Below are positions 7,322 to 13,225 of a DNA stretch of 64,000 nucleotides, one piece after another. The position numbers and the translations under genes are program-made. Numbering within the stretch: position 1 is the stretch's first letter; each line of letters begins with the position of its first letter. The notes under the pieces were generated by a model that was not told where the DNA came from, searched no databases, and saw nothing but the letters and a program-made list of their open reading frames with translations. The stretch comes from Planctomycetaceae bacterium (lineage in GTDB: Bacteria > Planctomycetota > Planctomycetia > Planctomycetales > Planctomycetaceae): contig JANQRQ010000339.1 in NCBI GenBank assembly GCA_028284485.1, positions 1 through 64,000 of the forward strand. The letters are read 5' to 3'.

Positions 7322-7771
7322 TTAGAACGTCTTTCGACTGTCGATGAGCAGGGTGACCGGACCGTCGTTTACTAATTCGACATCCATATGTTGCTGGAAT
7401 CGACCGGTCTCGACACGAATCCCCTGAGTTTGCACATCGGCCACAAACTCGCGGTAGAGTGCGTCGGCCTGCTCCGGGGGAGCCGCCCGGATAAAACTCG
7501 GACGCCGCCCTTTCCGGCAATCACCCAACAGGGTGAACTGGCTCACGACTAGCATCGCCCCACCAACTTCAGAGAGCGAGCGATTCATCTTGCCGTCGTC
7601 GTCTTCAAAGATCCGCAGGCCGACAACTTTGTCAGCCATGATCGAAACGTCGCGCGCACCGTCGCCCGATTCGACTCCGAGAAACACAAGCAGTCCGCTG
7701 CCGATCTTTCCGACAACGTCACCGGCAACTGTGACGCTGGCTTGCGAAACGCGTTGGACAACCGCTCTCAC
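7322..7771 (-). CDS. dtd: D-aminoacyl-tRNA deacylase
   Basis: 149 residues, typical full length. It removes D-amino acids (and mischarged glycine) from tRNA in the cytoplasm. The family start [13 protein letters not shown], the active-site motif [20 protein letters not shown] and the cross-subunit Gly-cisPro motif in [11 protein letters not shown] are all present. It lies 120 bases downstream of the metallophosphoesterase-like gene on the same strand and may be transcribed with it, but the gap makes this uncertain. Confidence 0.96.
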
Positions 7772-7892: not shown

Positions 7893-8696
7893 TCAATACT
7901 TTCCCCGGCGTCGTTCCTTGGCGGGAAGCACTTCCAAGCAAGTCGTCCACCAGCCTGTGAGCGTTGTTTGTACAAATTCTTCCGGCAGTTTCTCCGCGCG
8001 CATTTCTCCGGCCAATCTCTGATAGTCGTATTGAACCGGAACGAACTCCACCTGAAACAACGGAGTCGCCGCGGCGCCGCCGATTGCCTCTTTCACGTCA
8101 ACAATGGCATACCACACATTCGATCGCCCGTCATTTTCAGGGCGACCAAGGACTCCCACATTGACAAATCGCCGCCCCCCCTGCAATTCGCGATGCCAAT
8201 GGACCCCGGTGTGAGTTCCGAGTATGAGATCCGCCTGGAAGTCTTCTGCCAATTTATTCAGAAAGTGAGTACTCGTTGTCGATTCCCACAAAAACTCGTT
8301 CGTCTTTCGCGGACTGCCATGACACAAGAGGAAGCGAGCTCCGTAACGCTCGAACCGAATTTCCTTGTCGAGCTTACGCATCCATCGCTTATGGTCATCG
8401 TTCGTGTTTTCGTAGGTGTACTCGTAGCTGATCTGCGCGAAGTAGTTGTCGCGAGGATCGGTATACCCACATTGGCAGTCCTGAAGGTCATTTCCGATGC
8501 TGTGATCGTAATTGCCCTGCACACAATCGATCTCGTGTTCGCGGATCATCTCACAAACACGATCGGGGTATGGACCGAAGGCACCCAAGTCGCCCAAGCA
8601 ATACATTCCTTGGGTATCTCGCCGACGCGCGTCCTCGATGGCAGCTTGCAGCGCCAAGTAGTTGTTGTAAACTCCGCCGAAGAATGCGATGCGCAT
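7893..8696 (-). CDS. Metallophosphoesterase-fold protein with altered motif I
   Basis: 267 residues. The calcineurin-like fold is readable: GDLGAFGPYPD (metal-bridging Asp), GNYDHSIG (GNHD-type motif), LLCHGSPR, and GTHTGVHWH near the end. The first motif, normally DxHxN, reads FFGGVYNNYLAL: Asp is replaced by Gly and His by Tyr, so one metal site should be lost or rebuilt. It is the last gene of a tight run, 11 bases after the radical SAM gene. Enzymatic activity cannot be predicted; a mononuclear phosphoesterase or a regulatory protein is possible. Residues after 220 have no recognised motif. Confidence 0.75.
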   Translation of the reverse strand: MRIAFFGGVYNNYLALQAAIEDARRRDTQGMYCLGDLGAFGPYPDRVCEMIREHEIDCVQGNYDHSIGNDLQDCQCGYTDPRDNYFAQISYEYTYENTNDDHKRWMRKLDKEIRFERYGARFLLCHGSPRKTNEFLWESTTSTHFLNKLAEDFQADLILGTHTGVHWHRELQGGRRFVNVGVLGRPENDGRSNVWYAIVDVKEAIGGAAATPLFQVEFVPVQYDYQRLAGEMRAEKLPEEFVQTTLTGWWTTCLEVLPAKERRRGKY

Positions 8697-8707
8697 ACCG
8701 CCCTATT

Positions 8708-9682
8708 CTACTCAACACGTTTTGACGAAGGGTTCGTACAAATCGACCCGTATTGATAACACGTATAACAGGCGCCGTGCTTCAGAGAGAATGCCCGATT
8801 CGATTGTTCAATTGAATCTCCCATCAGCGAGTCGGGCGAATCGAGCAAGATCGGGCAGACCGCGACACCACGGTCGGTGACCACCCGACTGTGACTACAT
8901 ATGAGTTGGCTGACGTCGAAGTCTTTCATCATTTCCGGCGTGACACGATCGTACTCGCCGTACCCTTCGGTTCGACAAACCTCAGCACCGATTTTCAACC
9001 TGGGAAGGATCTTAATTCGTGGCCGGTCACAGCCATGGTCGCGCAGCAATTGCTGAAACGAGGACAGGATTTCTTCTTCTCGCGATTCGTCCCAGATTCG
9101 CGTCATGGTGATGATCGGCAGAAACCCGTACTCGACGAGCAAAGCCACCCCCTGCATGGCTCGCTCGAATGTGCGTGGCCCGCGAACCGGATCGTTCATT
9201 TCCGACGTCGGACCATCGATCGACACCCGAAACTCGAGACTATAATCGACCGCGCGTTCCTTCTGTTGAAGTTGCTGCAGCCATTCCCGCTTGAGAACGG
9301 TGCCATTTGTCAAAACGGTCACAGGTCCGAAATCCAACGCGCGACACAGTATCGAAACGATCTCGCGATTCAGGAACGGTTCCCCACCAGTGAAGTAGTA
9401 CTCCTTAACTCCCCATCGTACCGACTCGACTAATTGTTCTTCGACTTGTTCCAAGCTCAAGTAGCCGTACGAGTCGTTATGCGGGCTGCAACTAATGAAG
9501 CAATGCGTACATTCCAGGTTGCACAATGTACCCGATACTTGAAACCATAATTCGTCCAGCGCGGCAAGCTCGACGACCGGCGAATTTACCGTTGCTTCGC
9601 CCCCCCCTTCTGTTGCTGCGTCTTCGATTGTCATTGGAACATCGCTCGCGGTGTTAATTTGGTCAATCGAAGTTGTTGCCAC
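8708..9682 (-). CDS. Radical SAM protein with C-terminal cysteine cluster
   Basis: 324 residues from a GTG; an in-frame ATG at 9634 is an alternative. The radical SAM [4Fe-4S] motif is CNLECTHC (Cys 54, 58, 61), followed by YYFTGGEPFLN (GGE motif) and SLEFRVSIDG. The C-terminus has additional cysteines (LICSHSRVV, VAVCPILL, GACYTCYQYGSICTN), which fits a SPASM/twitch-like auxiliary cluster domain as in peptide-modifying enzymes. No precursor peptide gene was recognised beside it. It follows the flavoprotein gene by 19 bases and precedes the phosphoesterase-like gene by 11, so co-transcription is very likely. Substrate unknown. Confidence 0.85.
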   Translation of the reverse strand: MATTSIDQINTASDVPMTIEDAATEGGGEATVNSPVVELAALDELWFQVSGTLCNLECTHCFISCSPHNDSYGYLSLEQVEEQLVESVRWGVKEYYFTGGEPFLNREIVSILCRALDFGPVTVLTNGTVLKREWLQQLQQKERAVDYSLEFRVSIDGPTSEMNDPVRGPRTFERAMQGVALLVEYGFLPIITMTRIWDESREEEILSSFQQLLRDHGCDRPRIKILPRLKIGAEVCRTEGYGEYDRVTPEMMKDFDVSQLICSHSRVVTDRGVAVCPILLDSPDSLMGDSIEQSNRAFSLKHGACYTCYQYGSICTNPSSKRVE

Positions 9683-9701
9683 ATGACGGCCACAACGTCG
9701 G

Positions 9702-10961
9702 TCAATTCGACGATTCTTGAATGAGGCCGTACGCCTGCTGAATTTGATCGAGACCAGTTCGGATCAGAAAACGCGGGTTCCGGCCGTAGCTTTTGGCTCC
9801 CAATATGAAGAAACCCGGCTCCGGGTTCTTTAACATCTCAGCGTCTGGACTTGCCTGTTGCAAGCAGTCGATGGAATTGTCGGCGAGCAGAGACGCCGCT
9901 AACTTGATGGGCCCTTGCGTGGCATAACAAATGTGTACCTGCAGTTCTTCAAACAGTGAGAGATCGGGACGGTAGCCGACATTGCCGATGATTCGATCGA
10001 CGTGGAGGTGCTGGTCCTCATCGCTGCTGCCGGCTGAGTTAACTCCTACTCGCAATTGAACTCGGAAGCCCGCACGAGGCGTCTCCACTTTTTGAACGCC
10101 CTCGATGTGACAATCCGACAGCCAGCGAACCGCAGTGTGCGGCCGAGTTGCCAGTTCATTCGCTCGGCATGTCAGCTGGTATCGTTCCGGAAGAGCGTCT
10201 CCCTCGATTACCGTTAACGGCTGCGAACTACGGCCTCTCGTAATCCAAACAACTTTCGTACCTGGTTCTTCTTCTGCAAGCGCTACCAAGTTGACAACAG
10301 CGGTCGCCGCCGAATAGCCACCTCCAACAACCAAGGTTGTCTTCCCAGAGTAATCGGGGCGTTGACGACCACAAATATCGGGCAACCCGTAATCAATTTC
10401 GCCCGCCAACGAGCGTTCCCCAAGGCAGGGAATCCCCCCTGCCCCAATCCAGTTGTGTTGCGGATACGTCCCGGAGCAGTCCAACACGAAGTCAGCGGTA
10501 TCCATTCGCTCGTCGCCCGCATGTTCGATCAGCAATTCGAATCCATCGCGTAGCCTTGACGGTCGACTAATCTCTTCGGCTTTTCCCAACGTGCGACGCC
10601 CGATCGAATGCACGCGCGTGGTCTCATAAAGAATGTTCGACAGTTGAGGCAATCGACCAAGAGGCAACAAATACCGCTCAGCGTATTCGCGTCCGGTCAG
10701 TATTTCGTTCTCATCTGGTAGTTCAATACCCGAGTCTTCGTCGATCAACGCCTTTCGGCCCCATCGAGACGAATTCATTCCGAAAGGACTGAAGAGCGTG
10801 ACGTGCCCCCAGTTCCGGACATTCTCCGCTACTCGGCCTTGCTCGTAGACAGAGACATCGTAACCGGCATTCACTCCGTACAGTGCAGCCTCAAGGCCGA
10901 TCGGCCCGGCCCCAATGATCGCCACTTGCTGTCGGCCGTTGCTGTTAGCACTGTTTGTCAT
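9702..10961 (-). CDS. FAD/NAD(P)-binding flavoprotein (monooxygenase/oxidoreductase-like)
   Basis: 419 residues from an ATG that overlaps the upstream stop as TGATG, indicating translational coupling; a longer frame upstream runs inside the previous gene and is rejected. Two dinucleotide-binding sites are visible: VAIIGAGPIGLEAAL at the N-terminus (FAD) and TTLVVGGGYSAATAV near residue 215 (NAD(P)). The arrangement, with WGHVTLFSPFGMNSSRWG after the FAD site and a terminal GFFILGAKSYGRNPRF, resembles flavin-containing monooxygenase or thioredoxin-reductase-like proteins. No redox-active CxxC is seen, which favours a monooxygenase-like or dehydrogenase role. Substrate unknown. Confidence 0.8.
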   Translation of the reverse strand: MTNSANSNGRQQVAIIGAGPIGLEAALYGVNAGYDVSVYEQGRVAENVRNWGHVTLFSPFGMNSSRWGRKALIDEDSGIELPDENEILTGREYAERYLLPLGRLPQLSNILYETTRVHSIGRRTLGKAEEISRPSRLRDGFELLIEHAGDERMDTADFVLDCSGTYPQHNWIGAGGIPCLGERSLAGEIDYGLPDICGRQRPDYSGKTTLVVGGGYSAATAVVNLVALAEEEPGTKVVWITRGRSSQPLTVIEGDALPERYQLTCRANELATRPHTAVRWLSDCHIEGVQKVETPRAGFRVQLRVGVNSAGSSDEDQHLHVDRIIGNVGYRPDLSLFEELQVHICYATQGPIKLAASLLADNSIDCLQQASPDAEMLKNPEPGFFILGAKSYGRNPRFLIRTGLDQIQQAYGLIQESSN

Positions 10962-11971
10962 CACGATGAAAGTTGGATTCGTTGGCCGGTTTGAGCCGCC
11001 TGCAGGCCGGACTGTAGAATCTCTTGAACGTCGCGGCAGATTTGGGGGGAACAAACGTCGCCTGGGGACTCGCCCGACTTAAGACAAGCTAAGAATGACT
11101 CCGGCCCGGTCCTGTGACCCTCTGGTAACGGCTCAACAGGAAGTTCCCGCTGTTCTCCTTCTTCGTATGCCACCCACATCTTGCCGGCATCGGTCCACAA
11201 CGTTCCCTTCGACCCCAGGTAGACTGCATCGTGATACGATGGGATTTGCGACCAAGAGGCCTCGGCAATTGCAAATCGTTTCTCGTACAAGAGAGTAATC
11301 GCTGCGTTGTCTTCCACGTTGATATCTTCTTTAGCAAGACGCCCTGCCACGGCTTGCACTGCTTGTGGCATTCCAAACAAATACCGAAAGGCGGCGGCCC
11401 CGTAACAGCAATAGTCTATCAGTGCCCCACCACCGTTCTGTGAGGCGTCATACAGCCAGTCGCAAAAATAGTCGCTGCATCCAAATTCGCGCGGACCTCG
11501 GTGCGCCATCCTCACTCGGGCTTGAAAAACTTCGCCGATAACGCCCTGCTGAATCTGCTCCCAAGCCCGCAGTGTCGGGGGGCGCCAGCGATTCGGCCAA
11601 TTGACGAAGAACAGTACACCGGCCTCTTCCATGGCCGAAAGCATGCGGTCAGCTTGTTCGAGCGTGGCGGCCATCGGTTTTTCCAACACGACCGGAATCT
11701 TGCGCTCGGCTGCCGCCTCGATCACTTCCAAGGCACCCGCATTGGAAGTGCAGACTTGAAGAATGTCGACTTCACTGTTTTCGAGCATCTCAGTAACGCT
11801 CGAAAACAACTGCTGAACGCCAAACTCATTAGCAATTCGCTCTTGCAACGGAGCGTTCGGATCGGCGGCTGCGACAATGTCGACCTGACCTGTTTCCTTC
11901 CACTTGGCCAATTCTGCCCACACATGGTCATGCACTAGGCCGGCCACTCCCAGTTGATATCGATCAGCCAT
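10961..11971 (-). CDS. Gfo/Idh/MocA family oxidoreductase
   Basis: 336 residues; the ATG at 11971 has AGGAGA 7 bases upstream. The N-terminal Rossmann domain (LGVAGLVHDHVW, then IVAAADPNAPLQ) is followed by the family's VVLEKPMAATLEQAD motif with the conserved Lys. The C-terminal alpha/beta domain carries GGGALIDYCCYGAAAFRYL where the catalytic His of many members is replaced by Cys/Tyr context, so the reaction may differ from simple sugar dehydrogenation. First gene of the tight four-gene run; 132 bases separate it from the upstream amine-oxidase-like gene. Confidence 0.88.
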   Translation of the reverse strand: MADRYQLGVAGLVHDHVWAELAKWKETGQVDIVAAADPNAPLQERIANEFGVQQLFSSVTEMLENSEVDILQVCTSNAGALEVIEAAAERKIPVVLEKPMAATLEQADRMLSAMEEAGVLFFVNWPNRWRPPTLRAWEQIQQGVIGEVFQARVRMAHRGPREFGCSDYFCDWLYDASQNGGGALIDYCCYGAAAFRYLFGMPQAVQAVAGRLAKEDINVEDNAAITLLYEKRFAIAEASWSQIPSYHDAVYLGSKGTLWTDAGKMWVAYEEGEQRELPVEPLPEGHRTGPESFLACLKSGESPGDVCSPQICRDVQEILQSGLQAAQTGQRIQLSS

Positions 11972-12103: not shown

Positions 12104-13225
12104 TCACTGCACCGGAGCTGCTTCGACCGCCGGACGTTGACAGCCAAAGGCCTCGACAGCAATGGTACAGCCCTGACGCATGATCAATTCTCGAACCAAA
12201 ACGGCCGTCGCAGGAGACAATTGCAACCCCGCGCGAAAATGGCCGGCAGCAATCCACATGCGGTCCGCATTGGGAACGGGTCCGATATAGGGGTTCTCGT
12301 CTGGCGAATACGGGCGTAGTCCGCACCAAGCTCGCTCAAACTGGGCATGGCGCAACGCGGGAACGAGGCGCTGTGCGAATGAAACCAACTCTCCAACTGC
12401 GCCGGCCGTGTTTCGCTTTTCAAATCCGACCGATTCTTCGGTCGACCCAATCAAGATGCGACCGTCCGGACGTGGAACAAGGTAGCGACGTCCATCCTCG
12501 ATAACGTGACGAATCGGGAGTGGTTGTGCGGACAACATGACAATTTGTCCGCGCATCGGTTTAATCCGGACTTCAGAGCACAATGACGACACCAGCCGGC
12601 CGGTCCAGGCACCACTGGCAACGACAACATGGTCGGCTTCGTGATTTTCTGTGGCCGTTTTGACGGAATGCGGTTTGCCTTCGCAAACGTCGATGTCCAG
12701 CACGCCTTCGTTGGGCCGGAGCTGCACACCCAACTCGAGACAGCCGGCAATCAAGGCTTTCAAATGCCGCGGGTTGCGAACCTGGCACAAATCGGGCAGC
12801 CGAAATCCAAACGGTAGATCGGAGTGCAGCGCAGGTTCATATTGTCGCATCTGCAGGGAGCCAAGCTCTTCAACACGAACCCCTTCTTGGCGCCATTCGT
12901 TGGCGTGTGACCGGCCCAATTCCATGTGCTCTTCACGATAAACAGCAATGCCACCACAATTGCGATAGCCATTGTCGATACCGGTCTCCGAAAGCAGTCG
13001 CGCGGACCATTCCGGCCACTGCTCGGAACTGAGGGCACGTAAGCCTGCTTCCGGCGAGTCCGCGCCGGTCAAGTTGCCGGGCGGAAGAATACCGGCACCG
13101 GCCCACGAGGCTTCCTTACCAAACTCGCTTTGGTCCAAAACCGTGACAGCCGCTCCCTGCCCTGCCAGTTCGTAAGCGACTGACAACCCAATGACGCCGC
13201 CGCCCACCACGATTACATCCGACAT
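12104..13225 (-). CDS. FAD-dependent amino acid oxidase, ThiO/glycine oxidase type
   Basis: 373 residues, usual for ThiO/DAO-like enzymes. FAD site VIVVGGGVIGLSVAYEL, second signature EASWAGAGILPPGN, substrate-domain RHVIEDGRRYLVPRPDG and C-terminal FERAWCGLRPYSPD / WIAAGHFRAGLQLSP are characteristic of glycine oxidase ThiO, which makes iminoglycine for thiazole synthesis in some bacteria. No thiamine gene (thiG, thiS, thiE) is nearby, so a thiamine role is not supported by context. It may instead belong with the downstream oxidoreductase run, 132 bases away on the same strand. Substrate inferred only at family level. Confidence 0.82.
   Translation of the reverse strand: MSDVIVVGGGVIGLSVAYELAGQGAAVTVLDQSEFGKEASWAGAGILPPGNLTGADSPEAGLRALSSEQWPEWSARLLSETGIDNGYRNCGGIAVYREEHMELGRSHANEWRQEGVRVEELGSLQMRQYEPALHSDLPFGFRLPDLCQVRNPRHLKALIAGCLELGVQLRPNEGVLDIDVCEGKPHSVKTATENHEADHVVVASGAWTGRLVSSLCSEVRIKPMRGQIVMLSAQPLPIRHVIEDGRRYLVPRPDGRILIGSTEESVGFEKRNTAGAVGELVSFAQRLVPALRHAQFERAWCGLRPYSPDENPYIGPVPNADRMWIAAGHFRAGLQLSPATAVLVRELIMRQGCTIAVEAFGCQRPAVEAAPVQ

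Follow-up and report, generated by a model that had tools for sequence, protein, structure and literature searches.

A planctomycete radical SAM protein, found in a conserved gene trio, as a probable replacement for ArsS in arsenosugar-type metabolism

What do a flavoprotein, a radical S-adenosylmethionine (SAM) protein and a metallophosphoesterase-like protein accomplish together when their genes are kept side by side? The question is raised by a minus-strand locus in a stretch of 64,000 nucleotides of Planctomycetaceae bacterium DNA (contig JANQRQ010000339.1; the whole stretch is called the window), where the three genes, here named FLAV, rSAM and MPE, follow a Gfo/Idh/MocA oxidoreductase gene, GFO (Table 1). 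The answer put forward is that this planctomycete gene group probably makes arsenic-containing sugars via a radical SAM protein unlike ArsS; more precisely, it is reasonably likely that rSAM is the enzyme forming the carbon-arsenic bond of an arsenosugar-type pathway and that it replaces ArsS in this role. This suggests more than one natural route to the key carbon-arsenic bond. ArsS adenosylates arsenic and is, with the arsinothricin enzyme, one of the radical SAM enzymes known to form carbon-arsenic bonds (PMC12159101). The literature searched describes one radical SAM enzyme only for the key arsenosugar bond, and the searches, which covered Rv1681, rSAM-ArsM fusions and planctomycete arsenosugars, returned no prior description of the system proposed here.

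Exchange of rSAM with ArsS

The distribution of the genes carries most of this reading. A co-occurrence survey covered 392 Planctomycetota genomes, and its p-values ignore relatedness. The glycosyltransferase TIGR04283 is encoded in 166 of these genomes, ArsS in 131 and rSAM in 41 (E <= 1e-30). TIGR04283 accompanies rSAM in 37/41 genomes (p = 2e-11) and ArsS does so in 1/41 (p = 7e-7), the exception, G320, being a 910-contig assembly. Sorted by the glycosyltransferase, TIGR04283-positive genomes comprise 36 with rSAM only, 101 with ArsS only, 1 with both and 28 with neither (p = 9e-18). The same pattern is given by the close rSAM relatives only, with TIGR04283 in 21/23 and ArsS in 1/23. No TIGR04167 (ArsS) match was found in the whole window genome (G000).

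In the window's own family, TIGR04283 is present if and only if the genome holds exactly one of ArsS and rSAM, which is true of 28/28 genomes from many genera (nine with rSAM, fifteen with ArsS, four with neither). This alternation within one family is a stronger point than the p-values. It also bears on the explanation that co-occurrence and exclusion are nothing other than effects of phylogeny, the genomes being related and the 41 rSAM-positive ones representing far fewer independent events. Such an explanation is scarcely credible given the alternation over so many genera, and given that, in the genus of the ArsS-positive genome G087, the sister genome G105 is without ArsS, rSAM and TIGR04283 alike.

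At least 11 of the 28 surveyed genomes that have TIGR04283 with neither enzyme encode a third form, an rSAM-ArsM fusion of about 700-1000 amino acids, and one more encodes a split version. Fusions of this kind with an N-terminal extension are seen in many TIGR04283-positive, ArsS-negative genomes (L198-L212, e.g. L206:1468-4041 and L209:1181-3796).

Links to arsenic genes

Like ArsS, rSAM goes with TIGR04283 and with a homologue of the methyltransferase ArsM. The window genome encodes TIGR04283 on contig C16 (L173:6137-6847, 243 bits) and an ArsM homologue on contig C77 (L172:6261-7448); together with TIGR04282 genes beside the operons of relatives, the ArsS-type partner set is found. The ArsM homologue is 55-60% identical to the ArsM proteins encoded beside ArsS in G048, G152, G257 and G385, and its sequence contains YGCG, SNCV.NL and GCISGA, which we take to be motifs usual in ArsM proteins that bind As(III).

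In sister clades the link is a physical one. Distant rSAM relatives of family f46, about 600 amino acids long, have an ArsM-type methyltransferase fused C-terminally (L051-L059; NF040538 4.9e-72), other distant branches have a separate ArsM-type gene adjoining (L060, L061, L063, L064), and TIGR04282/TIGR04283 genes lie beside these ArsM-fused or ArsM-adjacent types (L051, L055, L061). The rSAM tree, whose deep nodes are uncertain where long branches meet, places ArsM-fused and ArsM-adjacent clades on either flank of the window-type clade (98/98) and ArsS far off. The first branch within the window-type clade is L044, the protein of genome G003, where the order of genes (L183) is FLAV, rSAM, MPE, ArsM homologue, MIP channel, transglutaminase-like open reading frame (recognized by eye) and TIGR04283. 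In many loci a TIGR04282 gene stands directly upstream of ThiO-FLAV-rSAM-MPE; it exceeds the cut-off in the five loci checked, among them that of Blastopirellula marina DSM 3645 (L151), a genome in which TIGR04283 is present and ArsS absent. The ArsM-linked sister clades, the glycosyltransferase genes and the mutual exclusion with ArsS all point to a metabolism of organoarsenic compounds of the arsenosugar type.

Several observations weigh against this assignment. The genomes are not independent samples, and in the window genome ArsM and TIGR04283 are encoded away from the operon. The ArsM homologue of that genome matches best the arsinothricin ArsM model NF040538 (2.5e-104, 349 bits, cut-off 500) and stays below all curated cut-offs. 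B. marina DSM 3645 gave no NF040538 match at 1e-20, conventional ArsM not having been tested there. A sister genus (G205, G327, G333, G381) has kept FLAV-like genes although this rSAM is missing there. Finally, TIGR04282 and TIGR04283 were presumably named arsenosugar glycosyltransferases by NCBI mainly from genome context, and part of the argument is therefore second-hand.

The similarity to the arsinothricin ArsM leads to an alternative within organoarsenic metabolism, in which rSAM would transfer a different part of SAM (e.g. 3-amino-3-carboxypropyl) or make another carbon-arsenic bond, the product not being an arsenosugar. Precedent exists in the arsinothricin radical SAM enzyme (ArsL), which, with its ArsM, has in common with the present system the rSAM/ArsM-type pairing and carbon-arsenic bond formation (PMC12159101), and orthologues of FLAV and MPE are absent from the ArsS genomes of the window's family. 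Nevertheless, this alternative is unlikely, as rSAM is strictly tied to TIGR04283 and excludes ArsS, which suggests the same role in the pathway, and the same ArsM type adjoins ArsS in sister genomes. Moreover, no model of ArsL is among the 25 best matches of the window rSAM, for which the link to glycosyltransferases and the avoidance of ArsS point to arsenosugars instead of arsinothricin.

It is more doubtful still that FLAV, rSAM and MPE make or modify a small molecule without arsenic, so that the ties to ArsM and glycosyltransferases seen in sister clades would not transfer to them. The window operon itself has neither ArsM nor a glycosyltransferase, and other partners occur in some lineages, namely, in the Thalassoglobus group, a 3-dehydroquinate (DHQ)-synthase-like protein with a Gfo protein and, in f70, gamma-glutamyltranspeptidase. 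This is countered by the one-for-one exchange with ArsS inside a single family and by the early-branching L044/L183, where the genes are clustered with ArsM and TIGR04283.

A conserved unit of three genes

In the first-pass annotation, the locus had been described as a tightly packed operon of four genes, from GFO to MPE, to which the ThiO gene upstream might belong. The packing is confirmed by the coordinates, all on the minus strand: GFO and FLAV overlap as TGATG (TGA 10963-10961, ATG 10961-10959), 19 bases separate FLAV from rSAM and 11 rSAM from MPE, and ThiO lies 132 bases upstream of GFO. Pfam and TIGRFAM matches also agree with the families named for GFO, FLAV, rSAM, MPE and ThiO. The operon as a unit stands in part. 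Loci were counted in the surroundings of the best 80 of 526 rSAM relatives from the genome collection, which are planctomycete records except one titled "bacterium"; two are Kuenenia, planctomycete too. FLAV lies upstream of rSAM in 61/77 loci and MPE downstream in 62/75, with both in 48/72 and neither in 3/72; because the two recur around rSAM, the packing is not due to chance. In the window's family, orthologues of FLAV and MPE are present in 9/9 rSAM-positive genomes and in 0/15 of the rSAM-negative genomes searched, and FLAV is kept even though it is unlinked from rSAM in G024, G137 and G194.

The neighborhood comparison that the annotation had recommended thus upholds FLAV and MPE and removes GFO, which occupies its window position in 0/68 loci and was met elsewhere only in L034 among the fetched genomes (60% identity). 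The conserved unit is FLAV-rSAM-MPE only and GFO is a lineage-specific addition; a four-gene pathway including it was rejected. In the literature searched no pathway with this three-gene set is described, as the annotation had anticipated. Its suggestion about ThiO did not hold: the gene is upstream in 31/68 loci, but it is found in 26/27 genomes whatever their rSAM or ArsS status, mostly as a single copy. ThiO is for this reason regarded as a housekeeping neighbor linked by local synteny and was rejected as a pathway member. DTD and other housekeeping genes are likewise syntenic, and their order, the same in many relatives, marks a conserved chromosomal position.

Table 1. Features of the locus on the window, and genes flanking the trio in relatives
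Feature	Position	Strand	Match or remark
DTD (D-Tyr-tRNA deacylase), housekeeping neighbor	7322..7771	-	PF02580 1.2e-59
MPE: metallophosphoesterase fold, first metal site lost, extra invariant cysteines	7893..8696	-	PF12850
rSAM: radical SAM protein, proposed ArsS-replacing C-As bond-forming enzyme	8708..9682	-	PF04055 9.7e-21, GTG start
FLAV: flavoprotein with two dinucleotide folds (FAD/NAD(P)H), proposed to act in redox at arsenic	9702..10961	-	PF13738/PF07992, ATG start
GFO: Gfo/Idh/MocA oxidoreductase, outside conserved unit	10961..11971	-	PF01408/PF22725, ATG start
ThiO-type glycine oxidase, housekeeping (thiamine) neighbor	12104..13225	-	TIGR02352 294.8 bits, above the cut-off of 250.8
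Thalassoglobus-group flanking genes	L036:9988-11169, L036:6739-7887		same in L035, L037, L089, L093, L096

Some lineages depart from the common arrangement. At L192, L193 and L196, the ThiO locus carries FLAV-like genes but neither rSAM nor MPE, and three genomes of this genus are ArsS-positive; it looks like rSAM-MPE was lost there after a switch to ArsS. In the Thalassoglobus group, FLAV has been relocated and rSAM-MPE is flanked by the 3-dehydroquinate-synthase-like protein, the Gfo protein and a family without Pfam match. The gamma-glutamyltranspeptidase gene (L043:11151-12791) abuts FLAV in the f70/f76 lineages, and a prolyl oligopeptidase gene is directly downstream of rSAM at several loci where MPE is missing (e.g. 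L107:10966-13110). The DHQ-synthase-like, prolyl peptidase and gamma-glutamyltranspeptidase neighbors, as well as those of mandelate-racemase type, are each limited to a few lineages and were set aside.

The proteins and their possible chemistry

Membership of rSAM in the radical SAM superfamily is given by its PF04055 match, the cluster motif and a fold match to solved radical SAM enzymes. The extra cysteines remarked in the annotation are real: in 21 aligned proteins the CX3CX2C motif (C33/C37/C40) is invariant, and so are C44, C241, C255, C284, C287 and C294 (A1 numbering). The C-terminal five-cysteine motif is C-x9-G-x3-C...CX2CX6C; with only five conserved cysteines it does not fit the seven-cysteine SPASM motif, CX9-15GX4C...CX2CX5CX3C...C. 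The AlphaFold2 (AF2) model of rSAM (predicted local distance difference test, pLDDT, 90.1) has its closest structural match in SkfB, a peptide maturase (6efn, template modeling score, TM, 0.67). Together with the SPASM-like cysteine motif, this fold would agree with a maturase of ribosomally synthesized and post-translationally modified peptides. That rSAM modifies a peptide is nonetheless very improbable, considering that the operon has no precursor-sized gap (19 and 11 bases; conserved open reading frames below about 60 amino acids were not searched systematically), that the partners are small-molecule enzymes and ArsM, and that the small-molecule enzyme BlsE scores nearly as well as SkfB.

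The protein also lies outside named families, as had been claimed. It was rejected as ArsS (TIGR04167, 40.9 bits against a cut-off of 300) and as a member of the Rv1681 family (NF049973, 104.5 bits against 380), the latter being the best-scoring NCBIfam model but with an alignment confined to the core, 52-219. Searches of solved-structure sequences with the locus proteins returned generic relatives only. With ArsS the protein shares the radical SAM fold, and the ArsS motif C-x9-G-x4-C...CX2CX7C resembles that of rSAM, both being shortened from the SPASM motif. On the other hand, ArsS has TGGAPEMN where rSAM has TGGEP, the tree branch between them is very long (4.24), and rSAM, unlike ArsS, is partnered by FLAV and MPE. 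An hhalign comparison of the two gave 98.4% without a control; such a value is expected between any two radical SAM families and is not counted.

FLAV has in common with flavoproteins of the YpdA/thioredoxin-reductase type, its closest solved sequences, two dinucleotide folds. Its alignment shows no conserved CxxC, the invariant cysteines being C345 and C366. Model scores stay far below the cut-offs of the known families (38.3 against 339.9 and 37.2 against 425 bits), and the match to the model of the flavin monooxygenase ArsO is weak (2.2e-9).

The AF2 model of MPE (pLDDT 82.9) is nearest to SapH (3qfm, TM 0.77), followed by a Pyrococcus hypothetical protein (1nnw, TM 0.73). MPE has the overall fold of this Ap4A hydrolase/phosphodiesterase, but SapH retains the canonical D-x-H of motif I, which occurs in 0/82 MPE relatives; G-x-Y is found there in 82/82 (pattern allowing Phe). 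The alignment to SapH shows Gly and Tyr in place of the metal-1 ligands Asp and His in motif I, and Gly in place of the second His in motif V; MPE accordingly lacks the metal-1 site of a catalytic two-metal metallophosphoesterase. The metal-2 ligands D36, N62, H126 and H162 are invariant, as are C74, C76, C125 and C253, which include a CxC. Loss of all three exclusive metal-1 ligands with retention of the metal-2 site is seen in the whole family, that is, in the window protein and its 82 relatives.

In the proposed arsenosugar-type pathway, methylated As(III) would come from the ArsM-type methyltransferase, whose gene lies away from the operon. To this rSAM would attach a radical derived from SAM, most likely 5'-deoxyadenosyl if it works as ArsS does. 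Later enzymes would remove adenine, and the TIGR04283 glycosyltransferase would elaborate the sugar. FLAV probably acts in redox at arsenic (III/V), where it could set the oxidation state, and MPE may serve as a hydrolase with a single metal or as a binding protein rich in thiols; both would be lineage-specific accessory proteins of the rSAM version. Purine nucleoside phosphorylase genes, candidates for adenine removal, lie near ArsM-ArsS clusters (L178:10325-11164, L180:4915-5736).

Arsenosugars are major marine organic arsenic species. If the proposal is true, ArsS-negative planctomycetes would join the likely bacterial producers by way of a second, exchangeable enzyme, and the genomes which have the glycosyltransferases without ArsS would be explained. 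The proposal gives a function to the conserved trio FLAV-rSAM-MPE, and comparing rSAM with ArsS offers a clean test of the way in which such enzymes build carbon-arsenic bonds. It is conceivable, more tentatively, that carbon-arsenic bond formation evolved in a radical SAM lineage of its own, apart from ArsS, and that in one planctomycete clade this lineage recruited the flavoprotein and the one-metal metallophosphoesterase for a different, as yet unseen organoarsenical or a different route to it. In that case, Planctomycetota would hold at least three interchangeable radical SAM solutions, namely ArsS, the family of the window rSAM and the large rSAM-ArsM fusion.

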